The notes beneath the pieces are model-generated. The model had not been told where the DNA came from, ran no database searches, and was given only the letters and a program-made list of their open reading frames with translations. Shown piece by piece: positions 6,625 through 40,205 of a stretch of DNA of 64,000 nucleotides. Every line of letters starts with the position of its first letter. The first letter of the stretch is position 1. Both the position numbers and the translations under genes were made by a program. This DNA comes from Gammaproteobacteria bacterium (GTDB taxonomy: Bacteria; Pseudomonadota; Gammaproteobacteria; Burkholderiales; Rhodocyclaceae), in assembly GCA_018828385.1 (NCBI GenBank), contig JAHJVE010000007.1:62001-126000 (forward strand), in the 5' to 3' direction.

Positions 6625-8709
6625 TCAAAACTGGTAACGGGCGCTGACGCCGGCCAGCCAGGTGCGGCCCGGCGCAGCTTCGTAGAAGCGATCAAACCCG
6701 GCACCGACGATGACCGAGCCGACGTACTGGCGATCGAAGATGTTGTCGAAACGCAGGAAGCTGCGCAGGCTCACATCGCCATATTTACGGTCGATGCCGA
6801 AGCGCAGGTTGGCAATGGCGTAGGCGGGTGCGACCTGCTTGGCATTGGTGTCCTCGACGTACACCTTGCTGCGGGCGATGCCTTCGACGGCGGCATGGAA
6901 GCCGCTGGCCGGATGCTTCCAGGCCAGCTCGCCGAACAGGGTATGGGCGGGCACGCCGGGCAGACGGTTGCCGGCATTGATGAGGCCGGATGAAGAGGTG
7001 AAGGCTTCGTCGTAACGAGCGTCGAGCAGGGTGTAGGCAAGACGGCTGGAGAGGTTGTTGGCCCAGCGGCTGTCGATGGCCGCTTCGATGCCGCGACGCA
7101 GCGTCTGGCCGGCATTGCGGTAAGTCGTCCGGCCGCCAAGGGAGGAATCGACGACCAGTTCGTCCTCGGTTTCGATCTGGAAGACGGCCAGGTCGAGGCG
7201 CGTGTTGCTGCCAACGAAGGCCTTGAGTCCGGTTTCGTAATGGGTGCTGGTCGACGGCTTGAGGTCGTAGCTGAAGGTGCCACCGGGGCCGGAATAGAAC
7301 AGTTCGCCGAAGGTCGGCGCCTCGAAGCCGCGGGCGGCGCTGGCGTAGAGATTGACGGTCGGGGTCAGGCGGAACATGGCGGCGATGGTCGGCGTCGTCT
7401 TCTCGTAGCTGACGCTGCCGCTGTCGTTACCGTTGCTCAGGTAGGCGTCTTCGACATCGAAGGCAACCTGGCTGTGGCGCAAGCCGCCGCTGAAGGTCCA
7501 GCGCTCGCCCTGCCATTCGGCCTGGGCGTACTGGTCGAAACTGGCGACGCGGTCTTCTTCCTGGCGACGCAGCGTGCCCATGACGCCGAGCGTGGCGCCG
7601 ATGAAGTTTTCGTAACCGCGCCGTTGGTCGACCGACTGCTCGTAGTCGACGCCGACGGTCGTCGTCAGCTTGCCGCCGGCCAGCTGGAAGCGGCCGACCC
7701 AGCGCGTCGAGGCGCCGGCAAAGTCGCGGTCGAAATCGATGATGCCGCCGGAGTGCGCCGGATCGGCTTGGGTGCCAGGCGGTATCGACTGGTATTGCGT
7801 GGTCGACCGTTGCCCGGCGTAGGCCGAGACAAATACCGATTGATCGCCGAAGCGGTGCTCGTAAGTTACCCCGCCCTGCTTGTGGTCGAGGTTCTTGCGC
7901 GTGTTGTAGAGGAGCGGCGATGAAGCGACGCTACGCGGATCGGCCTGGTAGCCGGCCCAGCTCTGGCCCTGCGGATCGTCGGCCGTCTGCTGGAAGCTGT
8001 TGGCGATGAAAGTCAGTTTGCCGTCCTGGCTCGGCCGGTAGGTCAGCTTGACCATGACCTGGTCGCGTTCGGCCTTGCTGTGGTCGCGGTAGCCATCGGT
8101 GGCGAAGCGCGAGGCGTCGATGACGTAGCCGAGACCGCCGACCTCGCCCTGGGCCGTGAGGTCGGCTTTCCACATGTTGTCGCTACCGGCGATGAAGCCG
8201 CCTTCGACGCTCGGCCGGCCCGTACCGTCGGCCGTGAACATCTGGATGACGCCGCCGGCATGGTTGCCATAGACAACAGCCATCGGCCCGCGCAGGACTT
8301 CGATGCGCTCGGCGCGATCGAGGTTGAAGGTGGCGACCTGCCCCTGGCCGTCCGGCATCGAGGCCGGAATACCGTCAGCGACGAGGCGGATGCCGCGCAC
8401 GCCGAAGGCCGAGCGGGCACCGAAGCCGCGCGACGAGATCTGCAGGTCCTGCGCGTAGTTCTGGCGATTCTGCACGGTGATGCCGGGCACCGCGGCCAGC
8501 GCCTCGGAGGCATTGACCCGCGCCTGATCGGCGCCGATGCGGGCGGCGTCGACGACATCGACGGCGGCCGGCAAATCGAAGGTGTTGTGTTCGACGCGGC
8601 TGCCGCTGACGACGACAGCGTCGAGGGTCAGTGCCGTTTCGGCAGCGATGCCGAGGCAGGGAAAGGCAGCGGCGAGGATGACGGCGAGGCGCTTCGGGTT
8701 TTGTCTCAT
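6625..8709 (-). CDS. pqqU: TonB-dependent outer-membrane receptor, PqqU/YncD-like
   Basis: 694-residue TonB-dependent receptor with signal peptide, plug domain and 22-strand barrel. From memory of E. coli YncD (now PqqU, the PQQ importer) several diagnostic stretches agree closely: QNRQNYAQDLQISSRGFG, GIPASMPDGQGQ, TTQYQSIPPG, ELVVDSSLGGRTTY and REYVGSVIV-like QYVGSVIVGAG near the C-terminus. The protein ends in Phe. This supports import of pyrroloquinoline quinone, which fits the two PQQ alcohol dehydrogenases in the window. No TonB box was assigned. ATG 8709 was taken as start; an ATG at 8745 lies in a dispersed repeat. No strong ribosome site precedes either. Confidence 0.85.
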   Translation of the reverse strand: MRQNPKRLAVILAAAFPCLGIAAETALTLDAVVVSGSRVEHNTFDLPAAVDVVDAARIGADQARVNASEALAAVPGITVQNRQNYAQDLQISSRGFGARSAFGVRGIRLVADGIPASMPDGQGQVATFNLDRAERIEVLRGPMAVVYGNHAGGVIQMFTADGTGRPSVEGGFIAGSDNMWKADLTAQGEVGGLGYVIDASRFATDGYRDHSKAERDQVMVKLTYRPSQDGKLTFIANSFQQTADDPQGQSWAGYQADPRSVASSPLLYNTRKNLDHKQGGVTYEHRFGDQSVFVSAYAGQRSTTQYQSIPPGTQADPAHSGGIIDFDRDFAGASTRWVGRFQLAGGKLTTTVGVDYEQSVDQRRGYENFIGATLGVMGTLRRQEEDRVASFDQYAQAEWQGERWTFSGGLRHSQVAFDVEDAYLSNGNDSGSVSYEKTTPTIAAMFRLTPTVNLYASAARGFEAPTFGELFYSGPGGTFSYDLKPSTSTHYETGLKAFVGSNTRLDLAVFQIETEDELVVDSSLGGRTTYRNAGQTLRRGIEAAIDSRWANNLSSRLAYTLLDARYDEAFTSSSGLINAGNRLPGVPAHTLFGELAWKHPASGFHAAVEGIARSKVYVEDTNAKQVAPAYAIANLRFGIDRKYGDVSLRSFLRFDNIFDRQYVGSVIVGAGFDRFYEAAPGRTWLAGVSARYQF

Positions 8710-12801: not shown

Positions 12802-13719
12802 TCAGTCGAAATTTTCGGTGCACTCCGCCATCCAGCCCAGCGCCTTGATGCAGGCGCGGGCCATGGCCGGCGACAGGGCGTCGTGGCCGGCGCTCGCCAC
12901 CGGCACCCAGGTCGCCTCGGGCCAGGCCCGGTGCAGGGTTTCGGCAGCAATCGGCGGACAAACCGGGTCGGCCATGCCTTGCACGATGACCGCCGGCAGG
13001 TGGTGGATGCGGGCGATACCGGCCAGCAACTGGCCGGGCACGAGAAAGCAGTTGCGCGTCAGGTAATGCATCTGGATGCGCGCCCGGGCCATTTGCATGG
13101 CGTCGAGCCGCCCGTCGAGCGGCGTCTTGCCGACCAGTTGGCGCTGATAGTTGAGCCACAGCCGGGCCGCCTCGGCCGCGGTTTGCGGATCGTCGCCGAG
13201 GATGCGGCGGGAAAACGAGGTCAGCGGATGGCCCCGCTCCGACTCCGGCAGCAAGTCGCCGAGGCCGCGGGCGTAGGCGACGATTTCTTCGTGCGAACCG
13301 AGAAAGATGCCGTGCATGACCAGGCCGAGGACGCTTTCCGGATAAATCTGGGCATAGGCCAGGGCCAGCAGGCTGCCCCACGAGCCGCCGAAGACGATCC
13401 AGCCGGAGATGCCGAGGGCCTCGCGCACGGCGTCGATATCGGCGACCAGGTCGAGGGTCGTGTTTGCCTCCAGCTCGCCACTCGGCAGACTGCGTCCGGC
13501 GCCGCGCTGGTCGATGAGGACGACGCGGAAAAAATCCGGATCGAACAGCCGCCGATGCTCGGAAAGGCAACCGCCACCCGGCCCGCCGTGGAGGAAGACA
13601 ACAGGGATGCCGTCAAACGGACCGCATTCCTCGACATGCAGGATATGCCCGTCGCCGACCGCCATCTGCCGGACGCAGCGCGGCCGGCACTCGGGAAACA
13701 GATGTTGATCTTCTGACAT
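12802..13719 (-). CDS. pip: Prolyl aminopeptidase (proline iminopeptidase)
   Basis: Alpha/beta-hydrolase of peptidase family S33 that removes N-terminal proline from peptides. 305 residues. Visible motifs: oxyanion-hole HGGPGGG, the family signature DQRGAGRS, nucleophile elbow GGSWGS, an acidic residue in QGMADPVC and the catalytic His in SAGHDAL. The start codon overlaps the stop of the response regulator by one base (TGATG), making it the last gene of a tightly coupled seven-gene operon. Why a peptidase is coupled to a TonB receptor and two-component system is unclear. Confidence 0.93.
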   Translation of the reverse strand: MSEDQHLFPECRPRCVRQMAVGDGHILHVEECGPFDGIPVVFLHGGPGGGCLSEHRRLFDPDFFRVVLIDQRGAGRSLPSGELEANTTLDLVADIDAVREALGISGWIVFGGSWGSLLALAYAQIYPESVLGLVMHGIFLGSHEEIVAYARGLGDLLPESERGHPLTSFSRRILGDDPQTAAEAARLWLNYQRQLVGKTPLDGRLDAMQMARARIQMHYLTRNCFLVPGQLLAGIARIHHLPAVIVQGMADPVCPPIAAETLHRAWPEATWVPVASAGHDALSPAMARACIKALGWMAECTENFD

Positions 13720-14366
13720 CAGGCCTCGATCAGGCCGTTGCGCACGGCAACCAGCGTCAGCTCGGCGGCGTTCTGCACGTTGAGCTTCTGCTTGATGTGA
13801 TAAAGATGGGTGCCGACCGTGCTCGGACTCAGGCAGAAATCCTCGGCCACGTCGTTGACCGAGCGGCCTTCGGCGAGCTTCATGAAGACGGCCAGTTCCT
13901 TTTCGGTCAGCGTGTCCACCGGGTTGCTCGAGCCGGACAGCTGGGCCAGGGCGACGGCCTGCGCCAGTTCCGGGTCGAGGTAACGGCGCTCACCGGCCAC
14001 CTGGCCGACGGCGCGCAGGAATTCCTCGGGCGCCGCCCGCTTGCACAGGTAGCCGCGGGCGCCAAGACGCAGGGCGCGCACCGGCACGATGTCGTCGTTG
14101 TGGGCCGAGAGCATCAGCACTTTGGCTTTGGCATCCCAGACGAGCAGGCGCTCAAGCGCTGCCAGGCCGCCGATACCGGGCATCGAAACGTCCATCACGA
14201 CGACATCCGGGTTGAGTTCGGCGTAGAGGCGGACGGCGCTTTCGCCGTTCTCGGCCTCGCCAACCACGGTGGCGCCCGCCCCTTCGAGCAGGCAACGAAA
14301 GCCGAGGCGAACCATGGCGTGATCGTCGGCGAGCAGGACGCGCTTGCCTTGCAGGGCGTTGTTCAT
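13719..14366 (-). CDS. NarL/LuxR-type response regulator
   Basis: 215 residues. Receiver domain with acidic pair D14-D15, phospho-acceptor D59 (VVVMDVSMPG) and Lys in YLCKRA; C-terminal LuxR helix-turn-helix (LTEKELAVFMKLAEGRSVNDVAE, then SPSTVGTHLYHIKQKL). It pairs with the histidine kinase directly upstream, whose stop codon it overlaps by 4 bases. By context it should control alcohol-oxidation or PQQ/metal uptake genes, similar in place to the two-component regulators of PQQ dehydrogenases in pseudomonads; that is inference. Confidence 0.93.
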   Translation of the reverse strand: MNNALQGKRVLLADDHAMVRLGFRCLLEGAGATVVGEAENGESAVRLYAELNPDVVVMDVSMPGIGGLAALERLLVWDAKAKVLMLSAHNDDIVPVRALRLGARGYLCKRAAPEEFLRAVGQVAGERRYLDPELAQAVALAQLSGSSNPVDTLTEKELAVFMKLAEGRSVNDVAEDFCLSPSTVGTHLYHIKQKLNVQNAAELTLVAVRNGLIEA

Positions 14367-15772
14367 GCGAATTCCTCCGGGGAGTGTTGCGCGATGGCGT
14401 CAGGCAGGCGGGCGAAGATGCGGAAGCCGCCGCCGGCCGGTTGTTCGAATTGCAGATGGCCGCCCAGCGCGGCGATGCGTTCGCCCATGCCGGCCAGGCC
14501 GAGGCCGCAGCCGGGCTGCGCCGAGGGTTGGCCGGAACGGCCGCGACCGTTGTCGGCCAGGGTCAGCTGCAGCCAGCCGGCGACGCGGCTGATGGCCAGA
14601 TCGACCTGCGTGGCGTGCGCGTGGCGGACGACATTGGTCAGGCCTTCCTGAACGATGCGGACGACGGCCATGGCCAGATCGTCGGCAACGGGCTGTTCGC
14701 CGATGGCCAGATGGCGGTTCACGACAATGTCCGGGTGCTGCGCCTGCCAGCCGGCGAGTTGGCGCTCGAGCGTCGCAGCCAGACCGTTGCCGACAGCCGG
14801 GCGCAGGCGGTGCAGGATATTGCGCACGCCGTCCTGCATTTCGCCGGTGACGGCGACGATGCCCTGGGCCGGGACATGCAGGGCCGGGGCGTCGGCGGTG
14901 CGCTGGACGATGGCGCCGGCCAGGGCGCGCACGGCGGTAATGCCCTGGGCCAGCTCGTCGTGCAGCTCGCGGGCGATGATGCGGCGTTCCGCTTCGAGGC
15001 GGTCATGCATCTGGCGGTCGACTTCGCGGGCGCTTTCGAGGCGGACATTGTCGTCCACCGCTTCGCCCAGCCGGTCGGCCATGCCGTTGAAGGCGCGCGA
15101 AATGCGGCCGAGTTCCGGCGTCGCAAAAACCGGCAGGCGGGTGTCGAAACGGCCGCGCCCGGTGCGGTCGAGGGCGCGCATGATCTGGGCCAGCGGGCGC
15201 AGGGCGCGGCCGAGCGCCGTGCGCGTCGCCACGAAGAGCACGCCGAGCAGGCCGAGCGCCCAGCCGGCCATGGCGGCCAGTTCGTCCCAGGCGTCGAGAA
15301 TGGCGCGCGAATCGTCGGGATGCAGCGTCAAGGTATAGCCCTCGACGACCAGCGTGCGGGCAGGATATTGACTGGCCAGCAAGCCGGCGAACCAGTCCGG
15401 CGCCATGCGCCCGGCCTTGTAACTCGGGGCTGGCGAACGGTAGATCGTGGCGCCGGCCAGCGTGCGGATTTCCAGCTCGTTGGCGCGCACCCGGCCAATG
15501 GCGCGGGCGACAGTGAGCAGTCGCTCACCCCGCGTCGCGGCCGGCACGTCGTGCATTTCGCCAAGCACGGCCTTGAGCCATTGCTCGGAAACCCGCGATG
15601 CCGCCTCGACTTCCTCGTGGATGGCATTGCGCGTACCGTGCAGCCAGAGGCCGGCAAGGACGATGAGCAGGCTGGCCGCCAGCGCGGTCAGGACGAGGCC
15701 GACGCGGGTGTGCAGGGAGAGCTTTGCATTCCCACGGTCAACCGGAAATTTTGGCCAAAAATAAAAGGTCAT
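14363..15772 (-). CDS. Membrane sensor histidine kinase (HisKA_3 type)
   Basis: 469 residues. Two transmembrane helices (about residues 25-45 and 160-180) bracket a periplasmic sensor of the LapD/MoxY N-terminal type; a HAMP linker, a HisKA_3 dimerisation helix with ELHDE (phospho-acceptor H271) and a HATPase_c domain (NVVRHAHA, DNGRGR, GLGLAGMGERI) follow. The start ATG overlaps the receptor stop (ATGA). The first 14 residues (MTFYFWPKFPVDRG) are encoded by a dispersed-repeat copy, so the N-terminus looks extended by that element. Forms a pair with the NarL-type regulator downstream. Confidence 0.92.
   Translation of the reverse strand: MTFYFWPKFPVDRGNAKLSLHTRVGLVLTALAASLLIVLAGLWLHGTRNAIHEEVEAASRVSEQWLKAVLGEMHDVPAATRGERLLTVARAIGRVRANELEIRTLAGATIYRSPAPSYKAGRMAPDWFAGLLASQYPARTLVVEGYTLTLHPDDSRAILDAWDELAAMAGWALGLLGVLFVATRTALGRALRPLAQIMRALDRTGRGRFDTRLPVFATPELGRISRAFNGMADRLGEAVDDNVRLESAREVDRQMHDRLEAERRIIARELHDELAQGITAVRALAGAIVQRTADAPALHVPAQGIVAVTGEMQDGVRNILHRLRPAVGNGLAATLERQLAGWQAQHPDIVVNRHLAIGEQPVADDLAMAVVRIVQEGLTNVVRHAHATQVDLAISRVAGWLQLTLADNGRGRSGQPSAQPGCGLGLAGMGERIAALGGHLQFEQPAGGGFRIFARLPDAIAQHSPEEFA
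15728..15762 (-). repeat. Dispersed 35-bp repeat, copy 5
   Basis: Near-perfect copy (minus strand TTTTTGGCCAAAATTT, CCGGTTGACCGTGGGAAT) lying within the first codons of the histidine kinase gene. Confidence 0.9.
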
Positions 15773-18102
15773 TTGCCACCAAACACGTAACGCACGCCGA
15801 GCCAGGCGGCACGCGGGGCGCCGGGTGCGACGAAGGTTTCACGACGCCAGTCGTCCGGATCGAGCTGCAGGCTGCCGCCGACGAAGGGGTTTTCGGCCAG
15901 GGCGCCGGCCGTCGCGTAGTGCTTGTCGAAGACGTTGTTGACCTTGGCGAACAGCTGCCAGCCGCCACCCAGCCTGGCTTCGGCGTTGAGGTTGAGGATG
16001 GCGTAGCCGGCAACCTTGCCCGGGCCGTCGAAGGTGCGCGTGTTGGCATTGAGGTCGGTATAGGTGCCGCTCTGGTGCTGGTTGTTTTCGTTGCCACGCA
16101 CGTATTGGCTGGAGAAGGCCTGGACGTCGCCGCCGAGGCGCAGCCAGTCGGTGGCGCGCCAGGCGAGGCCGAGCTTGAGGCTGTGCGTCGGCAGGCCGGG
16201 GATGTGGTTGCCCTTCTTGACCAGAATTTCGTCGTCCTGACCGGCGCCGGTACATTCGGCCGTCGTGCCGCGCGAGCTGTTGTTGGCGCCGAGCAGACAG
16301 GCGTCGGAACGGAAGGTGGCCTGCAGCCAGCTGTAGTTGGCGTACCAGTCGAGGCGGCGATGGCTGCCGTTGAGGCCGAGTTCGAGGCCCTGGCGCAGGG
16401 TCTTGCCGTAGTTGGTGAAGTAACCGGCGCTGGTCGAGGTGCCGACGAACAGGATGTCGTCGCTGCTCATGGTGCGGAACAGGCCGGCGTTCCAGTTGGT
16501 GTCACCGGCCAGTTTGCCGCGCAGGCCGGCTTCGAGTGTGCGGGCAACGACCTGCTTCAGATACGGGTCGGCGGCCATCGAGTTGGGCAGGGTGCACGGG
16601 TTGGCCGGGTCAGCGCAGCCGAGTTCGATCGGCGTCGGCACGCGGTTGCCCTGGCTGAAGCCGGCGTAGGCATTGAGCGCCGGGACGATCTGCCAGCTCA
16701 AGCCAAGCGCCGGGTTGAGCTTGCGATACTTGTGATCACCGTCGAGGTTGGGCGCCGTGCGATTGAGTTCGTCGAAGGTCGTGACGTGGCTCATGTTGTA
16801 GCGCGCCGAGGCGGTCAGGTGCAGGTTGGGCAGCAGCGAGAAGGTGTCGGTCAGGAACAGGCTGGCCGTGCTGGTCTTGCCGTTGATCTGGTTTTCGACA
16901 GCGAGCGCCGACAGATTGGTCACCCCGCGACTGGCGTCAAGATCGCCGAGTTCCTGCGTCTGCTGGAAGTTGATGCGGGCCTGGTCGTAGGAAGCGCCGA
17001 CGGCGAGTTGATGCTGCTGGCCGCTGAAGTTCCACTGGCCGGCGAGGCCCGTGCTGCGCTGCTCGGTCCTGGTCCGGTTGTTGGCCCCGGTTTCATCGGG
17101 CGCCGGGCCGACCATGCCGCCGGTTACCCAGTCTTCGTAGTCGGTTTCGTAATCGTCGTTCATGTCGCCATTCAGCGTGCGCGTCTTGGTCCGCCGGTGA
17201 TAGACGCTGGCGGAGAGGCTTTGCGTGTCGCTGAGCCACAGCTTGCCGTTGAGCGCCAGCTGGGTCAGGTCGTTGCGCGTCTCGTCGGGGTGCGTGAAGA
17301 TCGATTCGCGGCGCTCGGCGAGCATCGATTCGGGCAGCAGGCCATTGCCGATCAGCTTGCTGCGCGCCTTGGTCAGCGTCAGATCAGCCTCGCCGGCAGC
17401 GTTGCGGAAAGACAGCTTGCCGAAGAACTGTTTGACGTCGGACGGCGAATGGTCGCGCCAGCCGTCTTCGCGGAACCAGTCACCGGCGCCGTACCAGCCA
17501 AAGGTGCCGTTGTTGCCGCCGTACTCGAGTTCGGTGTTGGTGCGGTTGAAACTGCCGCCGGAAAACTCGATCTTGCCGCCCGGGTGCGAAAAACCGCTCT
17601 TGGTCCGCATGGCCAGCGCGCCGCCCAGGGTATTGAGGCCGAAAGCCGGGTTGGAGCCGGGAACGAGGTCGATGCCGGCAATCGCCGAATTGGGGATCGC
17701 ATCCCAGTTGACCGTATCGCCGAAAGGCTCGTTGACGCGCACGCCGTCGACGTAAACCGACAGCCCCTGGGCCGTGCCGAGCAGCGGCGAGGCAGTGAAG
17801 CCGCGGTAATTGAGGTCGGCCTGGTAGGGATTGCCGGTGACTTCATTGACGGTCACGGCCGGCACCTGGCGAACCAGTTGTTCGGCGATGTTCTGGCTCT
17901 CGATTTCGTCGAGGCGGCGGTCGTCGAGCGACTGGACGTTGGCCGGCAGGTGCAGGCGCGGCACGCCGATGCCGGACAGCGGCGTGGTGCCGACGACTTC
18001 GACGGTCTCCGTGGTGACCACCGTCTCGGCGGCGAAAGCCGGGGCGAAGGCGGCGGAGATGGCGACGGCGAGCAGGGAACGGGCGGGGGTTTGTCTCTTC
18101 AT
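15769..18102 (-). CDS. TonB-dependent outer-membrane receptor of the PQQ-dehydrogenase operon
   Basis: 777-residue precursor: signal peptide MKRQTPARSLLAVAISAAFA, plug domain (VYVDGVRVNEPFGDTVNWD, GGALAMRTKSGF) and C-terminal barrel ending LGVRYVFGGK. Its start overlaps the tonB stop (ATGA) and its stop overlaps the kinase start (ATGA), an unusually tight arrangement for a receptor, its own TonB and its own regulator. The substrate is not visible; the neighbours suggest something needed by PQQ dehydrogenases, such as a lanthanide or metal chelate, PQQ itself or an aromatic alcohol. A different subfamily from the PqqU-like receptor at 6625. Confidence 0.9.
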   Translation of the reverse strand: MKRQTPARSLLAVAISAAFAPAFAAETVVTTETVEVVGTTPLSGIGVPRLHLPANVQSLDDRRLDEIESQNIAEQLVRQVPAVTVNEVTGNPYQADLNYRGFTASPLLGTAQGLSVYVDGVRVNEPFGDTVNWDAIPNSAIAGIDLVPGSNPAFGLNTLGGALAMRTKSGFSHPGGKIEFSGGSFNRTNTELEYGGNNGTFGWYGAGDWFREDGWRDHSPSDVKQFFGKLSFRNAAGEADLTLTKARSKLIGNGLLPESMLAERRESIFTHPDETRNDLTQLALNGKLWLSDTQSLSASVYHRRTKTRTLNGDMNDDYETDYEDWVTGGMVGPAPDETGANNRTRTEQRSTGLAGQWNFSGQQHQLAVGASYDQARINFQQTQELGDLDASRGVTNLSALAVENQINGKTSTASLFLTDTFSLLPNLHLTASARYNMSHVTTFDELNRTAPNLDGDHKYRKLNPALGLSWQIVPALNAYAGFSQGNRVPTPIELGCADPANPCTLPNSMAADPYLKQVVARTLEAGLRGKLAGDTNWNAGLFRTMSSDDILFVGTSTSAGYFTNYGKTLRQGLELGLNGSHRRLDWYANYSWLQATFRSDACLLGANNSSRGTTAECTGAGQDDEILVKKGNHIPGLPTHSLKLGLAWRATDWLRLGGDVQAFSSQYVRGNENNQHQSGTYTDLNANTRTFDGPGKVAGYAILNLNAEARLGGGWQLFAKVNNVFDKHYATAGALAENPFVGGSLQLDPDDWRRETFVAPGAPRAAWLGVRYVFGGK

Positions 18103-18848
18103 GTTGTTTTTTTGAGTTTGTAATTGATGGGTACGACGACTTGAATTTCGTTGGCCTCCAGTGCTTCGGGCAGCGGCGGCAGGCCGGCCAGGGCTTCGAG
18201 CATGGCCAGGGCATGCTGGTCGAGAACATCGAAGCCGCTCGAACGGTCGAGGACGACGCCGAGCAGGTTGCCCTTGCGCGCCACCTTCAGGCGCAGGCGC
18301 ACTTCGCCCTCCCAGCCGCGCATGGCGGCGACGCGCGGGTATTCCTGATGGCGGGCGAAGAGTTCGCCGAGGCGCTGGCGATAGCCGGCGAGGACTTCGC
18401 TTTGCGGGCGCTGCGGCGCGATGGCGGGGGCCGGCCGGGCGATTTCTGCAACCGGCGCGGAAACCGGCGCTGAAGCCTCGGCGGCCGGGGCGACGCTTTC
18501 GGCGGCCAGCGCCGATGACGGCGATGGCGCGTTTGCCGGCACGTTGGCCGGCCCGGCAGTCTGCGTCGCAGGCGGAACCATCCGCTCCCTGCGCCGTGTT
18601 TCCTGCCGGGCCTTCTGGGGGACGGCTGCCGGCGCCGGGGCGGGTTCGGCAACAGGTCCGGATTCGGTGACGGCGATCAGGCGGATCGACGCCAGTAGTG
18701 GTGGCAGGCTGACCGGGCCGTTCTTGCGCTCCCAGGACGTCAGCGCCAACAGCGAGCCGTGGAGCAGCACGGACAATCCCAGAATTGCCCAAAATTTCCG
18801 GTTGACCGCAGGAATGGCCGGCGCCTCGATGTTGGCCGGGGTGATCAC
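18099..18848 (-). CDS. tonB: TonB energy-transducing protein
   Basis: 249 residues. N-terminal membrane anchor (FWAILGLSVLLHGSLLAL), a long Pro/Ala-rich periplasmic spacer (residues about 65-155) and a TonB C-terminal domain with YPRVAAMRGWEGEVRLRLKV. It would couple the proton-motive force to the receptor encoded next to it. GTG start at 18848 overlaps the stop of the metallohydrolase gene (GTGA). No exbB/exbD are in the window. Residues AVNRKFWAI, just before and into the anchor, are encoded by a dispersed-repeat copy. Confidence 0.92.
   Translation of the reverse strand: MITPANIEAPAIPAVNRKFWAILGLSVLLHGSLLALTSWERKNGPVSLPPLLASIRLIAVTESGPVAEPAPAPAAVPQKARQETRRRERMVPPATQTAGPANVPANAPSPSSALAAESVAPAAEASAPVSAPVAEIARPAPAIAPQRPQSEVLAGYRQRLGELFARHQEYPRVAAMRGWEGEVRLRLKVARKGNLLGVVLDRSSGFDVLDQHALAMLEALAGLPPLPEALEANEIQVVVPINYKLKKTT
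18782..18815 (+). repeat. Dispersed 35-bp repeat, copy 6
   Basis: AATTGCCCAAAATTT then CCGGTTGACCGCAGGAAT, antisense within tonB, encoding the residues at the start of its membrane anchor. Confidence 0.88.
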
Positions 18849-19783
18849 GGTTTGGCTCCCAACGCCTGCAGTTCGGCGGCCGGGAAGAGATGGCCGACCG
18901 AGCGGCGATACTCGCTGGCGGCGACCGGCAGGCGGGCGAACTCGGCGGGCAGCGGGCGGGCCAGCACGTCGTTCATGTCCAGCCCGTCTTTCGCCGCCGA
19001 GCGCATGGCAGCGCTCAGCCAGGTCAGCCAGGCGCGCGTCTGGCGGATCGGGCCGGCATCGGCGCTCGGCACACCATGGCCGGGCAGCAGCACCTTGAAA
19101 CCGGTTTCGCGGGTCAGCGCTTCAAGCTGGTCGAGCGCCTTGAGCCAGTGGCCGACGTCGGCATGCGGCGTGGTCGGGGCGCGGCCGTTGAAGGCGAGGT
19201 CGCCAGCAAAGACGACGCCGCTGGCTGCATCGACGACGACCAGATCGGCGCCGGTATGACCGTCGAGGGCAACGAGGCGCAGGCGGCGGCCGGCGACTTC
19301 AACGATGCCGGCGCTCAGCGTCCGGCCAGGCAGCTGGACTTCGGTGCCCTTCATCCAGTCGCCGGACATCCGGTAGAGGTTCTCGGCAAAAGCATTGCCG
19401 TCGGCGGCGATGCCGTCGCGCGTTTCGGCCAGCGCGGCAATCGGCAGGTCGGCAAAAGCCTGGTTGCCGAGGAAGTGGTCGGGATGGTGGTGGGTGTTGA
19501 TGACCAGGGCGATGGGCTTGGCCGTGACCGCGGCAATCGCCCGCCGCATCTGCTGGCCGTAGCGCAGCGAGGGGCCGCTGTCGATGACGATGACGCCTTG
19601 CGGGGCGACGATGAAGGCAGTGTTGACGATGTTGCCGCCGTTGTCGGTGGTGAAGTCCTCGGTCTTGCCGATGAAGGCGTAGACGTTTTTGGCGATCGGC
19701 CTGGCGCTCAGCCGGTAGTCGAAATCGACCGCCTGAAGCTGGCCGGCAACGAGCAGGAGCAGGACACCGAGCAGGCGTTTCAC
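18845..19783 (-). CDS. Quinoprotein-associated zinc metallohydrolase (MBL fold)
   Basis: 312-residue exported metallo-beta-lactamase-fold protein with signal peptide MKRLLGVLLLLVAGQLQA. Zinc ligands appear in NTHHHPDHFLGN, ALDGHTGAD, VFAGDLAF and LLPGHG. It matches the SoxH-related group that accompanies PQQ-dependent dehydrogenases (quinoprotein relay system zinc metallohydrolase). The reaction is unknown. GTG start at 19783 overlaps the stop of the SoxYZ-like gene (GTGA); its stop overlaps the tonB start (GTGA). Confidence 0.9.
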   Translation of the reverse strand: MKRLLGVLLLLVAGQLQAVDFDYRLSARPIAKNVYAFIGKTEDFTTDNGGNIVNTAFIVAPQGVIVIDSGPSLRYGQQMRRAIAAVTAKPIALVINTHHHPDHFLGNQAFADLPIAALAETRDGIAADGNAFAENLYRMSGDWMKGTEVQLPGRTLSAGIVEVAGRRLRLVALDGHTGADLVVVDAASGVVFAGDLAFNGRAPTTPHADVGHWLKALDQLEALTRETGFKVLLPGHGVPSADAGPIRQTRAWLTWLSAAMRSAAKDGLDMNDVLARPLPAEFARLPVAASEYRRSVGHLFPAAELQALGAKP

Positions 19784-20550
19784 TGGTCTATCCTCGCCGT
19801 GAACGCGTTGCCGTTGTTGTCGCGGCCGGTTGCTTCAACCGGGCCGTCAGCACTGACGCGCTGCAGGGTGAACACCGGGTTTTCGCTGACCGGCTCGTAG
19901 GTCTGGACGCGCATGAGGCGCTTGCCGGCGGCGTCGGCGAAGTTGATTTCTTCAAGAAAGAAGGCCGGCGTGCCGGCAACCAGGCCAGTATCCATCGGAT
20001 GCACGATGCGCATGCGCAGGCGGCCGGCGTTCGGGCCATCGCTCCACTGGCGACCGCTCACTTCGTTGAGGCGCTGCTGCCATTCCTTCGAGCCGCCCGC
20101 CGCCGACGGTGCCGTGCAGCCGCCGCCCACCGTGTTCACCCACGTTCCGCCGACGTGCCAGACGCCATCGGCCGTGCGCACGGCAGCGCGAACCGGCGTC
20201 GATTGCTGCAGCTTGACGCGAAAGCCGAGGAAAGCCGGGGCATCTTCGGGGAAAAAACGCAGCACCTGGACGATGGGATTGAAATCTGCGAATACGACGA
20301 CTTCAGCCACCCCCGGCAAGGCCGTGGCGTCGACGGTGACCGGCACCTGCATCGGGTTTTCGGCGGTCGATGGCGCAATGACCTTGACGCGCGGATCGAA
20401 GAGTACCGGCGCCCCGGCCAGGAAAGCCTTCTGCATGTCCGACCAGCGCGCCGAATCGAGCGGATCGCCGCTCTCGCGCAAGGCTGCGGCCTCGGCCGGG
20501 GGCATCAAGGCCGCCAGCGCAATCGCCGCAATGGTCAGAGGGTATTTCAT
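19780..20550 (-). CDS. Quinoprotein dehydrogenase-associated SoxYZ-like carrier protein
   Basis: 256-residue exported protein, signal peptide MKYPLTIAAIALAALMPPAEA. The first half resembles SoxY (FDPRVKVIAPSTAENPMQVPV, FADFNPIVQVLRF) and carries a single Cys in VGGGCTAPSA, like the SoxY swinging-arm cysteine but internal because SoxZ is fused behind it (MRIVHPMDTG, FFLEEINFADAAG). This fused form is known from clusters for PQQ-dependent alcohol oxidation; its cargo is unknown. ATG 20550 is preceded by AGGAGCGAG. First gene of the overlapping operon. Confidence 0.9.
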   Translation of the reverse strand: MKYPLTIAAIALAALMPPAEAAALRESGDPLDSARWSDMQKAFLAGAPVLFDPRVKVIAPSTAENPMQVPVTVDATALPGVAEVVVFADFNPIVQVLRFFPEDAPAFLGFRVKLQQSTPVRAAVRTADGVWHVGGTWVNTVGGGCTAPSAAGGSKEWQQRLNEVSGRQWSDGPNAGRLRMRIVHPMDTGLVAGTPAFFLEEINFADAAGKRLMRVQTYEPVSENPVFTLQRVSADGPVEATGRDNNGNAFTARIDQ

Positions 20551-20646
20551 CGTTGTCTCGCTCCTGTTCGCCCTGTGGTCTGCTTCGAAATTAACGGAAC
20601 TCAATGAAGGCGCCGGATTTGTGTTCCTGGCTAGGCGCGAACCACA

Positions 20647-20666
20647 GCGATAGCCAACGCTATCGC
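20647..20666. repeat. Perfect inverted repeat (hairpin/operator candidate)
   Basis: GCGATAGC-CAAC-GCTATCGC: 8-bp arms, 4-base loop, no T-run, 97 bp upstream of the SoxYZ-like gene. Could be an operator for a dimeric regulator. Confidence 0.6.
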
Positions 20667-20986
20667 GAGGATGAGCAACGACGCCAGGGACGCAAAGACA
20701 AGCTTTCATGTTTCGCTAATTGCGAAGCAGACCACTCAAGGCTGTTTGAAAAGGAGTGTGCAAAGCGCGTGCCAAGATCGGAGCATTTCGGGCAATCGCT
20801 GATCTGGCGGGCAAAGGCGGCGTGACCCAGCACACTGTCACAGCGCCTGAACAACCCGGGTGTGCAACTTTGGAGCAGATGGTGACTATTGGAACAGGCC
20901 GCCCGGGCGCCGCCCTGCTCCACGCTAAAAGCCCGAAATGCCGCCATCCGCCCCGTAAACAGGAGCGCCGGGCATTCCGGCCCGGC

Positions 20987-21003
20987 TTGGCACAGCCCTT
21001 GCA
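20987..21003 (+). promoter_or_regulatory. Sigma-54 promoter of the lanthanide-type PQQ dehydrogenase gene
   Basis: TTGGCACAGCCCTTGCA: -24 GG at 20989-20990 and -12 GC at 21001-21002, exactly ten bases apart, matching TGGCAC-N5-TTGCA. The predicted start site is about 120 bp before the ATG at 21134. Confidence 0.8.
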
Positions 21004-21133
21004 GATTGTGTTCCCTGCCAGCGAGCCGGTTCAGGGAATGGAGGTGGCTCGCCAGCATGTCATTCCACGCGGTCGGGCCGTGTTCAGCACGGTTTTCCGC
21101 GTTGGAACCATCGGAAAATCAAGGAGACAATCC

Positions 21134-22918
21134 ATGCATAGTCATACCCCCTTCAAGCGGAGCGTACTTACTCTCGCGCTTCTGACGGCCGCTGCCTTTG
21201 CCGGCAGCCCGGCCAGCGCCGGTGTCACCGACGCCGACATCCTCAACGACGCCAAGACGCCCGGCGACGTGGTCAGCTTCGGCCTCGGCACCCAAGGTCA
21301 GCGTTTCAGCCCGTCCACCCAGATCAACACCAAGTCGGTGAAGAACCTGGTCCCGGCCTGGTCGATGTCCTTCGGCGGCGAAAAGCAGCGCGGTCAGGAA
21401 TCGCAACCGGTCATCGCCAACGGCAAGATGTTCGTGACCGCCTCCTACAGCCGCCTGTTCGCCATCGACGTCAAGACCGGCAAGAAGCTGTGGAAGTACG
21501 AGCACCGCCTGCCGGACGGCATCATGCCGTGCTGCGACGTGATCAACCGCGGCGCCGCCCTGTATGACAACCTGGTCATCTTCGCCACGCTGGATGCCCA
21601 GCTGGTCGCCATGAACCAGGACACCGGCAAGGTCGTCTGGAAAGAAAAGCTCGGTGACTATGCCGCCGGCTACTCTGCCTCCGCCGCCCCGATCATCGCC
21701 AAGGGCAAGCTGATCACCGGCATCTCCGGTGGCGAATTCGGCGCTGTCGGCCGCATCGACGCCCGCGATCCGAAGACCGGCAAGCTGATCTGGTCGCGTC
21801 CGACCGTCGAAGGCCACATGGGCTATCGCTACGACGCCGACGGCAAGGCCATGGAAAACGGCATCTCCGGCACCCTCAACGCCACCTGGTCGGGCGACCT
21901 CTGGCAAACCGGCGGTGCAGCGACCTGGAACGGCGCTACCTACGATCCGGAAACCAACCTGATCTTCGCCGGTACCGGCAACCCGGCCCCGTGGAACAGC
22001 CACCTGCGTCCGGGTGACAACCTCTTCTCGTCCTCTACCGTCGCCATCGACGCCGACACCGGCAAGATCGCCTGGCACTTCCAGGGCACCCCGCACGATG
22101 GCTGGGACTTTGACGGCGTGAACGAATTCGTTTCCTTCGACTACAAGGATCCGAAGACCGGCAAGATCATCAAGGCTGGCGCCAAGGCCGACCGCAACGG
22201 CTTCTTCTTCGTTAACAACCGGACCAACGGCAAGCTCCTCGGCGCCTACCCGTTCGTCAAGAAGATTACCTGGGCTACCGGCTTCAACCTCGAAACGGGC
22301 CGTCCGAACTACATCGAAGAAGGCCGTCCGGGTGACCCGACCGCCAGCGCCGATGGCAAGAAGGGCAAGGTCGTCTTCTCGGCTCCGTCCTTCCTCGGCG
22401 GCAAGAACCAGCAGCAAATGGCCTACAGCCCGCAAACCGGCCTCTTCTACGTGCCGGCTAACGAGTGGTCGATGGACATCTGGAACGAACCCGTTTCCTA
22501 CAAGAAGGGCGCTGCTTACCTCGGCGCCGGCTTCACCATCAAGGCTCTGAACGACGACTACATCGGCGCCCTGCGCGCCATCGATCCGCAGACCGGCAAG
22601 ATCGTCTGGGAAAACAAGAACTACGCTCCGCTCTGGGGCGGCGTCCTGACCACCGCTGGCGGTCTGGTTTTCTACGGCACCCCGGAAGGCTACCTGAAGG
22701 GTCTTGATGCCAAGACCGGCAAGGAACTGTGGTCGTTCAACGTCGGTACCGGCATCGTTGCACCGCCGGTCAGCTGGGAACAGGATGGCGAGCAGATGAT
22801 CGCCGTGACGACCGGCTGGGGCGGCGCCGTTCCGCTCTGGGGCGGCGACGTGGCCAAGCGCGTGAACTTCCTCGAACAGGGCGGTTCGGTGTGGGTCTTC
22901 AAGCTGCACAAGGGTTAA
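21134..22918 (+). CDS. PQQ-dependent alcohol dehydrogenase, lanthanide (XoxF/PedH/ExaF-like) type
   Basis: 594-residue periplasmic quinoprotein with signal peptide ending PASA, eight-bladed propeller and the adjacent-cysteine motif GIMPCCDV that contacts PQQ. It oxidises primary alcohols and passes electrons to cytochrome c. Metal-site residues agree with the lanthanide type: Glu in GGEFGAVG, Asn in GTGNPAPWN, catalytic Asp325 and the extra Asp327 in DGWDFDG; calcium enzymes have Ala, Ser or Thr at the last position. ATG 21134 has AAGGAG 9 bp before it. Transcribed from a sigma-54 promoter. Codon use suggests high expression. Methanol versus longer alcohols cannot be decided here. Confidence 0.92.
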
Positions 22919-22930
22919 TTTGAAGTTAGG

Positions 22931-22989
22931 TCGGGCGCTTCGGCGCCCGATTGAAACGGCGCGACGGCTTCGGCCCTCGCGCCGTTTTT
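22931..22989 (+). terminator. Double-hairpin terminator after the lanthanide-type dehydrogenase
   Basis: First hairpin TCGGGCGC-TTCG-GCGCCCGA (22931-22950); second ACGGCGCGA/TCGCGCCGT (22956-22984) followed by TTTTC. The second has intrinsic-terminator form. Confidence 0.8.
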
Positions 22990-22990
22990 C

Positions 22991-23025
22991 GTTTTTGGAC
23001 ATTTTCCCCGGTTGACCGTGGGAAT
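22991..23025 (+). repeat. Dispersed 35-bp repeat, copy 7
   Basis: TTTTTGGACATTTTCC then CCGGTTGACCGTGGGAAT; directly follows the terminator. Confidence 0.85.
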
Positions 23026-23059
23026 GCATCGCGCCGTGGCTGGGTAATCGCACGAATAC

Positions 23060-23103
23060 CCACTCCCTCCCCTTCAAGGGGAGGGCTGAGGTGGGGATGG
23101 GGT
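23060..23103. repeat. Palindromic element of the widespread SPPLEGEG type
   Basis: CTCCCTCCCCTTCAAGGGGAGGG followed by TGAGGTGGGGATGGGG. The centre CCCTCCCCTT-GGGGAGGG is a near palindrome. Elements with this sequence, often mistranslated as HLSPPLEGEG, are scattered through many proteobacterial genomes; single copy here. Confidence 0.6.
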
Positions 23104-23293
23104 AAAACTGGCCGGAACATGGCACCAAATACGTGGGTTTACTCACCCATCCCCCTGACAAAGCCACTAAGCAACCGACTAAGCCGCCAAACAACGGCAG
23201 CCAAGTCTCTGCTTATCCCGACCTCACCCTTGTCCATAGGATACCGGCCCTGCGGGCCATAAGGGAGGAGAAGATGCGTCCCACATTTGTCTG

Positions 23294-24506: not shown

Positions 24507-26375
24507 TCAGTTCTTCAGCGACTTCGGCAGCTTGAAGACCCACATCGAGCCGCCCTGGGTGACCTGCTTGGTCAGTTCGGCCATGTCGCCACCCCACAGC
24601 GGCACGGCGCCGCCGTAGCCGGACTGGATGCCGACAAACTGTTCGCCATCCATTTCCCAGGTGATCGGCACGGAAACCACGCCGGAGCCGGTCTGGAACT
24701 TCCACAGCTCCTTGCCGTTCCTGGCGTCGAAGGCCTTGACGTAGCCGTCGGAGGTGCCGGTGAACAACAGGCCGCCAGCGGTGGTCATGGTGCCGGCCCA
24801 GAGCGGGAATTTCTCCTTGTGCTCCCAGACGATCTTGCCGGTCTTCGGGTCGAGGGCGCGCAGGGTGCCAACATGGTCGTCGTACAGACGCTTGATGCGG
24901 AAGCCCTGGCCGAGGTAGGCGGAACCGGCCTTGTAGGTCAGTTTTTCGGTCCAGTAATCCATCGCCCAGTGGTTGGCCGGGATGTAGAACAGCTCGGTCT
25001 GCTGGCTGTAGCTCATCGGCATCCAGTTGGTGCCGCCGAGGAAAGGCGGCGAAACGTAGACGGTATCGCCCTTGTCGGCGCCCGCCTTGGGGGCCGGCGG
25101 GCGGTTGCCCTTTTCGATCGGCTTGCCGGTCTTGAGGTCGAAACCGGACGCCCAGGTAATGCCGTCAACGAACGGCCAGGCGCCGATCAGCGAGGTTGGC
25201 TTGTTCGGGTAGCCGGCGCCCTTGGCCAGTTTTTCGCGGTCGGTAACGAAGAAGAAGCCGTTGCGGTCGGCGTGGGCCGAGGCCTTGATCAGCTTGCCGC
25301 TCTTTGGATCCTTGTACTCGAAGAGAACCACCGAGTTGTTGCCGGAGAAGTCCCAGGCATCGTTCGGCGTGTGCTGGTAGAAGCCCTTGAGCTCGCCGCT
25401 GCTGGCGTCGACATAGGCCTGGCCGGAGGTGAACAGGCTGTCCCAGTTGCGCGGGTCGTCGCCTTCCTTGGTCCGGTGCCAGGTATTCCACGGTGCCGGG
25501 TTGCCGGCACCGATGACCACGGTGTTGTTATCGACGTCGAAGCTCGCCGTCTGCCACGGCGCACCACCGCCGTGGTTCCAGGCATCGACCAGCTTGCCAT
25601 CCTTGTCGCGCGGCCACGAAGGCGCCTTGGCGTCGCCGGTGGTGACACTTTCCTTGCCGTTCAGGCGGCCCATGTGGCCTTCGACCAGCGGCCGCGCCCA
25701 GACTTCCTCGCCGGTATCCGGATCGCGCGCAAACAGCCAGCCGACAACGCCGAACTCGTCACCCGAAGAACCATGCACCAGCAGCATCTTGCCGCTCTTC
25801 TGATCCTTCACGACAAACGGCGCGCCGGTCATCGTGTAGCCGATCTTGTGGTCGCCGAACTTCTTCTTCCAGACGACCTTGCCGGTGTCCTTGTTGAGCG
25901 CCACGATGCTGGCGTCGAGCGTGCCGAAGAAAATCTTGTCGCCGTAGATGGCCGGGCCGCGATTGACCACGTCGCAGCAGGGGCGGATGTCTTCCGGCAG
26001 ACGCGCTTCGTACTCCCACAGGCGCTTGCCGCTCCTGGCGTCGATCGCGAAAATGCGCGAATACGACGAGGTGATATAGATGACGCCATCGTGCACCAGC
26101 GCCTGGCCTTCCTGGCCGCGCTGCTTCTCGCCGCCGAAGGAGAAACTCCAGGCCGGCACCAGATGATCGACGTTTTTCGTGTTGATCCGGGTCAGCGGGC
26201 TGTAGCGCTGGGCCTTCATGCCGAGGCCGTAGGACAGCACATCGCCGGTCGTCTTGTCGTCGTTGAGAATATCCTCCCAGCTCACCGCCTTGCTGGCCAT
26301 GGCCGGCGTGCAGAAAGTGGCCGCAAGCAATGCGGCAAGGAGGGTCTGGCGGGGGGTGAAGCGGATCGGTTCCAT
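24507..26375 (-). CDS. PQQ-dependent alcohol dehydrogenase, calcium (ExaA/PedE-like) type
   Basis: 622-residue periplasmic quinoprotein: signal peptide TLLAALLAATFCTPAMA, eight-bladed propeller, adjacent cysteines in DIRPCCDVVNRG, metal-site GDEFGVVG and GAGNPAPWN, catalytic Asp342 in NDAWDFSG. The residue two after the catalytic Asp is Ser344, as in Ca-dependent enzymes, not the Asp of the lanthanide type. Oxidises primary alcohols. AGGAGACGAAAG precedes ATG 26375. Divergent from a two-component system (26586-28516) that probably controls it; no sigma-54 promoter was found upstream. Downstream: pentapeptide protein and cytochrome c. Confidence 0.93.
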   Translation of the reverse strand: MEPIRFTPRQTLLAALLAATFCTPAMASKAVSWEDILNDDKTTGDVLSYGLGMKAQRYSPLTRINTKNVDHLVPAWSFSFGGEKQRGQEGQALVHDGVIYITSSYSRIFAIDARSGKRLWEYEARLPEDIRPCCDVVNRGPAIYGDKIFFGTLDASIVALNKDTGKVVWKKKFGDHKIGYTMTGAPFVVKDQKSGKMLLVHGSSGDEFGVVGWLFARDPDTGEEVWARPLVEGHMGRLNGKESVTTGDAKAPSWPRDKDGKLVDAWNHGGGAPWQTASFDVDNNTVVIGAGNPAPWNTWHRTKEGDDPRNWDSLFTSGQAYVDASSGELKGFYQHTPNDAWDFSGNNSVVLFEYKDPKSGKLIKASAHADRNGFFFVTDREKLAKGAGYPNKPTSLIGAWPFVDGITWASGFDLKTGKPIEKGNRPPAPKAGADKGDTVYVSPPFLGGTNWMPMSYSQQTELFYIPANHWAMDYWTEKLTYKAGSAYLGQGFRIKRLYDDHVGTLRALDPKTGKIVWEHKEKFPLWAGTMTTAGGLLFTGTSDGYVKAFDARNGKELWKFQTGSGVVSVPITWEMDGEQFVGIQSGYGGAVPLWGGDMAELTKQVTQGGSMWVFKLPKSLKN

Positions 26376-26585
26376 GTTTTCTTTCGTCTCCTGAATAGTG
26401 TCTTTGCTCTCCCGAGGGGCCCGGGTGGCCTGCCCTGATCGACAGACGAGCCGAGTATAGGAAGCGAAATCGCCCGCAGTCTCGGGACAAGCTCCCCGCC
26501 AAACCGGGAAATTTTCCCGAGGGCAAGGCAAGCCGGTACGAAACCTGCTGAATCCATGGCATCTCGGGGAAAACAAAGGTCAGGC

Positions 26586-27872: not shown

Positions 27873-28516
27873 TTCGCATCATTCTGGTCGACGACCACGC
27901 CATCGTCCGTACCGGCTACCGCCGTCTGCTCGATGCAGAACCCGGCATGCAGGTGGTGGGCGAAGCCGCCTGTGCCGACGAGGCCAACGCGCTCGTCCTG
28001 CGCACCACGGCCGACGTCGCCCTGATCGACCTCAGCCTGCGCGGTAGCAGCGGTATCGAAGCCATCCGCGGCATGCTGACCCGCCAGCCCGGCCTGAAAG
28101 TGCTCGTTCTCTCCATGCACGAAGGGGCCGGCCACATCACCCAGGCCCTGAAAAGCGGCGCCATGGGCTACCTGACCAAATATTGCGAACCCGGTGACGT
28201 GATCGACGGAATCCGCCGCATCGCCGCCGGCAAGCGCGTCTTCTCGCCGGAAATTGCCCAGGTGCTGGCCGAGGAAGCCATCGACGGCGATGGCGCCCTG
28301 GCCCATCTCACGCCGCGCGAATTTGAAGTCCTGCGCATGCTGGCCCATGGCGAATCGGCCAGCTGCATTGCCAATTCGATGCACCTGAGCCCGAAAACTG
28401 TGCTCAACTACCTTACCCTGATCCGGCAGAAGCTCAATGCCGACAACGATTTCAAGCTGCTTCACCTGGCCGCACGGCATGGCCTGGTGGACATGAGCAG
28501 AACCATCAATGCCTGA
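27869..28516 (+). CDS. NarL/LuxR-type response regulator
   Basis: 215 residues: receiver with D8-D9, phospho-acceptor D54 (ALIDLSLRG) and Lys in YLTKYCEP; LuxR-type helix-turn-helix LTPREFEVLRMLAHGESASC with SPKTVLNYLTLIRQKL. Coupled by a 4-base overlap to the kinase before it. In pseudomonads a similar regulator controls the PQQ ethanol dehydrogenase (ExaE/AgmR, PedR); orthology is suggested by position and type only. Confidence 0.92.
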   Translation: MIRIILVDDHAIVRTGYRRLLDAEPGMQVVGEAACADEANALVLRTTADVALIDLSLRGSSGIEAIRGMLTRQPGLKVLVLSMHEGAGHITQALKSGAMGYLTKYCEPGDVIDGIRRIAAGKRVFSPEIAQVLAEEAIDGDGALAHLTPREFEVLRMLAHGESASCIANSMHLSPKTVLNYLTLIRQKLNADNDFKLLHLAARHGLVDMSRTINA

Positions 28517-37964: not shown

Positions 37965-37996
37965 GGCGGCTCCTTTGGCGAGGTGGCGGCGACGCC

Positions 37997-38488: not shown

Positions 38489-38612
38489 GACTAGTTTCCT
38501 GATTGACTGATGTTTTTGGGAATTCACCCGAAACCGGCATCAGGCCATACTGCACCGGAAAGAACTCCAGCATATCACGCGTTTCCGGCCAGCCAGGTGC
38601 GGCAGCACACGC

Positions 38613-38635
38613 AAAAAAAAACCACCCGATGGTGG
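38613..38635 (-). terminator. Intrinsic terminator of the pedF-cytochrome b561 operon
   Basis: On the minus strand CCACC-ATCG-GGTGG followed by nine T residues, about 95 bp past the cytochrome b561 stop; repeat copy 13 lies between. Confidence 0.8.
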
Positions 38636-38644
38636 CGATGGATT

Positions 38645-38681: not shown

Positions 38682-38728
38682 CGGTATTACTTTAGTCAGA
38701 GCACATTGCTGCACCGTGAAGCAGCTGT

Positions 38729-40203: not shown

Positions 40204-40205
40204 GC

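Follow-up and report, generated by a model that had tools for sequence, protein, structure and literature searches.

The stretch of DNA described here, referred to as the window, comprises 64,000 nucleotides from a Dechloromonas-like Gammaproteobacteria bacterium of the Rhodocyclaceae (GCA_018828385.1, contig JAHJVE010000007.1, positions 62,001 to 126,000 of the forward strand). It contains a seven-gene operon encoding a TonB-dependent receptor together with its own TonB and two-component system, and the operon is oriented divergently from a gene for a lanthanide-type pyrroloquinoline quinone (PQQ) alcohol dehydrogenase. The region between them carries two outward-facing sigma-54-like promoter sites. 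We consider it likely that the operon is a sigma-54-driven module for the acquisition and sensing of a lanthanide or lanthanide chelate, feeding the PedH-type dehydrogenase.

The seven-gene operon

The operon consists of seven open reading frames (ORFs) on the minus strand, extending from coordinate 20550 down to 12802, and all six junctions overlap (in order GTGA, GTGA, ATGA, ATGA, ATGA, and TGATG). The first gene (19780–20550) codes for a 256-residue SoxYZ-like quinoprotein-associated carrier (TIGR04557, 220.5 bits against a cut-off of 140) with SoxY and SoxZ domains, matched on a longer reading frame, and is followed by a gene for a 312-residue quinoprotein relay system zinc metallohydrolase 1 (18845–19783; TIGR04558, 418 bits, cut-off 300). 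Next is a dedicated TonB of 249 residues (18099–18848; TonB_C PF03544, and TIGR01352 above its cut-off) with a single N-terminal transmembrane segment by hydropathy, and then the 777-residue TonB-dependent receptor (15769–18102), which has plug and barrel domains and is classed as LutH-type by sequence; the receptor reference used in searches began one codon after the start at 18102. The two-component genes encode a 469-residue sensor histidine kinase (14363–15772) with HAMP and HisKA_3 domains and two transmembrane segments with about 115 residues between them, and a 215-residue LuxR-type response regulator (13719–14366) assigned as REC-LuxR from family profiles. The variable last gene (12802–13719) codes for a 305-residue prolyl-aminopeptidase-like alpha/beta hydrolase that scores 236 bits against TIGR01249, below the cut-off of 259.75. 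Sequence and profile matches bear out the gene families and overlaps of the original prediction, which had described the operon and overlooked the divergent dehydrogenase, the paired sigma-54 sites, and a gene for the PQQ receptor PqqU at 6625–8679.

A lanthanide-type dehydrogenase and paired sigma-54 sites

The divergent dehydrogenase gene (21143–22918, plus strand) matches TIGR03075, and the top PDB match of its product is 6zcv (E 2e-255), which we take to be PedH of Pseudomonas putida. Lanthanide-type enzymes are marked by an aspartate two residues after the catalytic aspartate, and the dehydrogenase has this residue in the motif WDFDGVNE. Its presence supports the link to PQQ dehydrogenases that had been proposed from the operon. 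An ORF on the minus strand (21119–23194) was rejected as a gene, being antisense to the dehydrogenase.

A search with the sigma-54 consensus TGGCAC-N5-TTGC identified TGGCACGCGCTTTGCA (20759–20774, minus strand) directed toward the operon and TGGCACAGCCCTTGCA (20988–21003, plus strand) directed toward the dehydrogenase. Both are kept with no more than two mismatches at 39 of 39 loci, which are what remains of 47 divergent loci, the window's included, after removal of four duplicates and of four Stutzerimonas loci that have a different arrangement without the sigma-54 pair. The operon-facing site has no mismatch in 18 loci, one in 17, and two in four, and the dehydrogenase-facing site has none in 24, one in seven, and two in eight; the best sites in 780 dinucleotide shuffles include none that is perfect, six with one mismatch, and 128 with two. 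These 39 loci are related and are not 39 independent events. At 38 of them a divergent dehydrogenase with the aspartate mark is present, and at the 39th (L102) it is lost at the contig end.

No clear palindromic activator site was found between the operon and the dehydrogenase, just a non-palindromic block, CTGCTCCAAAGTTGCA (20863–20878, minus strand), midway between the two sigma-54 sites, which is a candidate shared activator site. It has two or fewer mismatches in 18 of the 39 loci and three to seven in the remaining 21, and it is the sole site in the window with four or fewer. Between the operon's sigma-54 site and the SoxYZ gene there is also an insertion of ~160 bp with inverted-repeat ends (approximately 20575–20739), resembling a miniature inverted-repeat transposable element. 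Three close relatives used for comparison (L074, L076, and L077) lack the insertion, and there is a partial copy of it on contig C23 (79% over 109 bp).

A candidate regulator of the paired sites is a sigma-54 activator encoded at 41748–43733 (plus strand). Its family is represented in 16/16 genomes with the operon versus 37/105 other genomes, and in 13 of those 16 the best copy shares a contig with the receptor, at a distance of about 16 to 134 kb. The only other strict sigma-54 pair in the window (41521–41536, minus, and 41617–41632, plus) is located between the activator gene and that for a true PedF cytochrome (41044–41475, minus strand; TIGR04494, 212 bits, cut-off 122). Upstream of 20 activator relatives, our own included, both sites are free of mismatches in seven (L157–L162 and L171) and the outward site alone in six more, with the remainder lacking a clear pair. 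Activator 41748–43733 would probably act on the operon's paired sites. The genes facing it (37281–41475, minus strand) code for PedF, a solute-binding protein, a YVTN beta-propeller protein, and cytochrome b561.

Recurrence of the locus in relatives

Relatives were drawn from 121 genomes of the family, from 40 stretches mostly around receptors, and from the best 80 of 591 named loci, including those of Dechloromonas, Azonexus, Denitromonas, Azoarcus, Aromatoleum, Thauera, Stutzerimonas, Methyloversatilis, Variovorax, and others. The receptor is present at 1e-60 in 40 of the 121 family genomes. We counted 115 nonredundant receptor-hit loci, with the window excluded and with four duplicate records dropped together with L145 (the same record as L057, outside the core); the 47 with a kinase gene directly downstream of the receptor constitute the core set. 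The kinase/regulator pair of three core members (L037, L040, and L058) is nearer to a second such pair in the window (26556–28516). Gene presence at core loci was scored by tblastn thresholds and only where the stretch was long enough, and TonB is possibly under-detected.

The core that recurs in Rhodocyclales is the dehydrogenase facing away from receptor, kinase, and regulator genes. The regulator comes next after the kinase at 46/46 testable core loci and the dehydrogenase is divergent upstream at 34/36, and we note recognized TonB genes at 35/46, SoxYZ at 34/43, and the zinc hydrolase also at 34/43. The peptidase directly follows the regulator at 19 of 43. Each of SoxYZ, the hydrolase, a recognizable TonB, and the peptidase is absent from some otherwise similar loci, and the overlaps are not strictly retained, as spacings vary. 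The core order is not unique to this strain, so that the first refuting condition of the original prediction does not apply; because the order recurs in relatives, we regard the operon as more than a chance assembly. The same locus is present in Dechloromonas denitrificans (L092/L033) and D. hortensis (L084). At one locus (L069) the place of the operon receptor is occupied by a receptor near the type of a paralog on our contig C11.

Relatives of the receptor

Of the quinoproteins at nonredundant receptor loci that most resemble the lanthanide-type enzyme, 52 have the aspartate and four have neither mark, and all 27 PedE-like copies there have serine at this position (WDFSGNN). The receptor family also tracks pqqE, which is present in 28 of the 40 genomes with the receptor versus three of the 81 without it. 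Receptor homologs were found in 45 plasmid records at 1e-20, and in four of the seven stretches taken from these a PQQ dehydrogenase is encoded nearby (Variovorax, Burkholderia, Sphingobium, and Novosphingobium), with the aspartate mark in the first three.

The operon receptor shares 32–34% identity with receptors of lut-like clusters (324–422 bits over 678–772 aligned residues), against which PqqU scores just 45–61 bits. Lanmodulin searches gave 25 matches among 398 genomes, and stretches around 18 of these were examined. Two (L251 and L253) resemble the lut cluster in having LutA-, LutB-, LutE-, and LutF-like genes together with a receptor and lanmodulin, and a third (L239) contains transporter genes, lanmodulin, a receptor, and a kinase, with the regulator facing away. 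L257 and L258, found around receptor hits, similarly have a receptor, a kinase, a regulator facing away, and transporter genes. The kinases and regulators of L239, L257, and L258 are distantly like the operon's pair. On a Methylobacterium nodulans plasmid a receptor homolog is followed by genes for a LuxR-type regulator and a lanmodulin-like protein that has four [DN]PDxDG hands and matches lanmodulin 6mi5 at 5e-38.

In a tree of 38 receptors, the operon and lut-like receptors are apart from the other receptors of this genome, which are on long branches; of the 13 own receptors 12 entered the tree, the other being too short, and not every fork is supported. A reverse search with the L253 receptor as query finds two of the 13 own TonB receptors, the operon receptor and the C11 paralog. 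This paralog (L071, 2315–4912) is a second LutH-family receptor, and its gene adjoins a kinase/regulator pair resembling the one at 26556–28516. From its similarity to the receptors of lut-like clusters we call the operon receptor LutH-type by sequence. We do not claim strict lut-cluster membership for the operon, as neither the Lut transporter permease nor lanmodulin was found in the genome. We also rejected an acidic NGDxND motif as evidence of the cargo, since it is common to close relatives and absent in that form from the receptors of lut clusters. No PDB sequence matches the operon receptor at 1e-5, and its fold model (pLDDT 66.4) has the fold of a TonB-dependent transporter.

The cargo of the receptor

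Lanthanide chelate, PQQ, and a peptide-derived compound had been put forward as cargo in the original prediction. We favour a lanthanide or its chelate because of the relatives in lut-like clusters, the receptor homologs near PQQ dehydrogenases and lanmodulin, and the lack of PQQ contacts in the receptor (see below); the lanthanide-type dehydrogenase points the same way.

A number of observations weigh against this reading. Lanmodulin has no match in the genome, which is 99.55% complete, and neither does a LutF/PedC-like permease (best 24%, 32 bits). The receptor is present in just three of the 18 lanmodulin-centred stretches (L251, L253, and L239) and missing from 15. With the L253 receptor as query the C11 paralog comes out ahead, at 384 bits against 191 and 166 bits for the operon receptor, so that the latter is at most a putative LutH ortholog. 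The nearest solved structure to its modest fold model is PqqU. Sigma-54 sites with two mismatches are weak on their own, since 134 of the 780 shuffles reach two or fewer. The four quinoproteins without the aspartate mark (L065, L067, L127, and L142; 32–40% identical) are all outside the core, and the sole enzyme noted around Stutzerimonas locus L110 is of the calcium type. Receptor genes with a kinase/regulator pair are beside an apparent formate dehydrogenase cluster in the Methyloversatilis-like L055 and L131, and beside an apparent heavy-metal ATPase and MerR-type regulator in Azoarcus sp. Aa7 (L105), in each case as named by eye. One receptor relative (L178) is near a nickel transporter and a cytochrome c peroxidase, and another (L177) has no PQQ gene nearby. 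Of the three plasmid stretches without a PQQ dehydrogenase, one has lanmodulin and two (Methylocalor and Ideonella) have neither. Given the homologs near formate dehydrogenase, heavy-metal ATPase, and nickel transporter genes and the calcium-type enzyme of L110, the cargo may not be uniform across the wider receptor family.

Some of these same surroundings, and the four quinoproteins that lack the aspartate, would suit a receptor for iron siderophores or for another metal (copper, nickel, or molybdenum/tungsten) that is merely parked in an alcohol region, and the operon receptor does match a siderophore-receptor model, at 132.5 bits with a cut-off of 223.5. We think this unlikely, as such a receptor would not be expected to recur with a divergent lanthanide-type dehydrogenase and a shared sigma-54 control region, to have homologs beside lanmodulin and Lut/Ped transporter genes, or to adjoin PQQ dehydrogenases in Variovorax, Burkholderia, Sphingobium, and Novosphingobium.

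Import of PQQ or of PQQ complexed with a metal, to supply the quinoproteins encoded nearby, would accord with the co-occurrence of receptor and pqqE, with the PQQ dehydrogenase context, and with a PqqU-PQQ complex being the solved fold nearest to the model. It would, however, be redundant with the separate PqqU encoded downstream of the operon in the same direction (6625–8679, minus strand; PDB 6v81 and 9c4o, E about 1e-153), and the same redundancy would arise at 14 of 39 testable core loci, where a like-oriented PqqU gene follows within 9 kb downstream. The window's PqqU scores 638.7 bits against the NCBIfam PqqU cut-off of 1200 and retains Q84, Q121, K274, R304, Q308, Q310, and R365, with F for Y99. 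The residue roles and the signature Y/F/W99, R304, and R365 are those given in the available part of PMC12124388. None of the eight PQQ-contact positions is present in the operon receptor in a profile alignment to 23 PqqU sequences; at the signature positions it has L107, T304, and F378, with the alignment loose near R304 and an arginine two residues before. The genome also encodes pqqE (by model), with pqqA–D beside it (named by eye), and so has PqqU with signature residues alongside pqq genes of its own. PQQ was rejected as the operon's cargo on the separate PqqU and the missing contact residues, and we regard its import by this receptor as quite improbable.

The remaining candidate, a peptide or peptide-derived compound taken up by the receptor and processed by the product of the last gene, draws on the coupling of the peptidase through TGATG and on an alpha/beta hydrolase, 40% identical, whose gene is beside the receptor in Burkholderia multivorans. 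That gene is, however, between the receptor and pqq genes, and the peptidase goes with the genes for PQQ synthesis: it precedes pqqE by a few hundred bases in G053 and G106, and a 39% paralog is beside the pqq genes of this genome. At 24 of 43 testable core loci the regulator is not immediately followed by the peptidase. The three peptidases tested (window, own paralog, and Burkholderia) score 224–236 bits, all below the prolyl aminopeptidase cut-off, which suggests a PQQ-linked subfamily. Hydropathy finds no hydrophobic segment in the peptidase, which is therefore probably cytoplasmic. On its distribution and its link with pqq genes, peptide cargo was rejected, and we find it scarcely credible. 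On our contig C12 (L184, 5132–9559) a pqq cluster (pqqE by model, the others by eye) is accompanied by a divergent prolyl-aminopeptidase-like gene, whose product is possibly a PqqA-processing peptidase.

Ped-type surroundings

The PedE/PedH-type dehydrogenase pair together with the SoxYZ-like carrier and zinc hydrolase, a trait of the ped cluster, is present in the window. The PedE-type (calcium-type) PQQ alcohol dehydrogenase is encoded at 24507–26378 (minus strand; TIGR03075) with the motif WDFSGNN. The same region has a pentapeptide protein, a PedF-like cytochrome (114 bits, short of its 122-bit cut-off), and the second kinase/regulator pair (26556–28516), which is where PedS2/PedR2 would be and is likened to them by position only. 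With no PedC/LutF-like permease in the genome, the PedA1A2BC transporter is not recognized; a solute-binding protein and beta-propeller (39259–41057) are weakly like PedA parts (TIGR03866, 216.6 bits, below 287.3).

A model for lanthanide acquisition

We infer the cargo, from homology and context, as well as the signal read by the kinase and the identity of the acting activator, and on these the following scheme would depend. The sigma-54 activator (probably 41748–43733, and perhaps answering to alcohol) would fire the two divergent promoters, such that the lanthanide-type dehydrogenase and the operon are made together. The LutH-type receptor, energized by its own TonB with ExbBD presumably supplied from elsewhere (no search was made for ExbBD), would import a lanthanide or lanthanide chelate to the periplasm, where the dehydrogenase with its PQQ would take up the metal. 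The SoxYZ-like carrier and zinc hydrolase would work on behalf of the quinoprotein, like their counterparts in the ped cluster, and the peptidase may be an accessory of PQQ supply. The kinase, via its periplasmic part, could read periplasmic metal or metal load, and the LuxR-type regulator could then tune either the choice between PedE and PedH or the operon itself. A self-regulating system, as had been suggested, is plausible in such a scheme, and receptor and kinase genes are neighbours in some lut-like clusters as well.

Because no LutF/PedC-like permease was found, the metal may never leave the periplasm, being captured, sensed, and used there. We offer only tentatively the further proposal that the locus represents a periplasm-only lanthanide device of non-methylotrophs, with receptor, TonB, sensor, and shared sigma-54 region and without cytoplasmic import of the metal.

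If the lanthanide reading is correct, it would supply a missing piece in the account of rare-earth metal uptake by bacteria other than methanol users, and the shared sigma-54 region would couple metal uptake with the enzyme's use. A receptor linked to a PedH-type enzyme seems to be present in many Rhodocyclales, cultured Dechloromonas, Azoarcus, and Denitromonas among them, so that the question of the outer-membrane route is directly testable in these. The order of the locus could serve as a marker for lanthanide users outside the methylotrophs, and a single region here sets apart a receptor for PQQ (PqqU) and one that is presumably for metal.

Comparison with known systems

Published systems are compared here from the available portions of the sources cited. 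The known lanthanide receptors are LanA and LutH (PMC12482762). In M. extorquens, lutH (META1p1785) is adjacent in numbering to lanM (p1786), and loss of lutH leaves more lanthanum in the medium and lowers its uptake; an mxaF strain stops growing without lutH, and about 60% of cultures acclimate later (PMC7391723). Homologs of lutH have been noted in Bradyrhizobium (PMC12628762), and a TonB-like protein and receptor are described, on the authority of others, as conserved in lanthanide methylotrophs (PMC6839425). The latter source has P. putida KT2440 lacking a LutH homolog, as does the portion seen of a review of its ped cluster, where SoxYZ-like and zinc hydrolase genes are placed near pedH and the outer-membrane route is called unresolved (PMC12997753).

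LanA of Methylotuvimicrobium buryatense (PMC12482762), likened here by description only, is a TonB receptor required for the lanthanide switch. PqqU/YncD (PMC12124388) is likewise a TonB receptor serving quinoproteins and has the same fold, but its PQQ contact residues were not found in the operon receptor, and PqqU has a gene of its own in the window. Methanol dehydrogenase clusters resemble the locus in having TonB-type uptake genes and sigma-54-type regulators near genes for lanthanide enzymes, and a figure legend names a tonB-like system in them and, for some, a GAF sigma-54 regulator (PMC11845868); these are mxa/xox clusters of methylotrophs, compared from the legend and not by gene order, and the available part of that review does not mention sigma-54 control of lanthanide uptake or paired sigma-54 promoters.

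The lut cluster of Methylorubrum extorquens AM1 (PMC7391723) resembles the operon in pairing a LutH-type TonB receptor with a lanthanide PQQ dehydrogenase, and some alphaproteobacterial lut-like clusters likewise have a kinase and regulator by the receptor. The operon differs from the AM1 cluster in its own TonB, its SoxYZ and hydrolase genes, its sigma-54 sites, and an enzyme that is PedH-type rather than XoxF-type, and in that the Lut permease and lanmodulin are not encoded anywhere we could find in the genome. With the ped cluster of KT2440 (PMC12997753) the locus has in common the PedE/PedH-type enzymes, a PedF-type cytochrome, a pentapeptide protein, the SoxYZ-like carrier and zinc hydrolase near pedH, and a two-component pair near pedE. 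KT2440 has PedA1A2BC, whose permease was not found here, and no LutH homolog in the account available; what the operon locus adds is TonB, the LutH-type receptor, an extra kinase/regulator pair, and the paired sigma-54 sites. Among the papers listed in searches of the open-licence PubMed Central literature we found no description of this operon, which agrees with the original remark that no operon of this content was known, although the building blocks are familiar: the ped and LutH-type parts are already known, and it is their arrangement in this operon that appears to be new.

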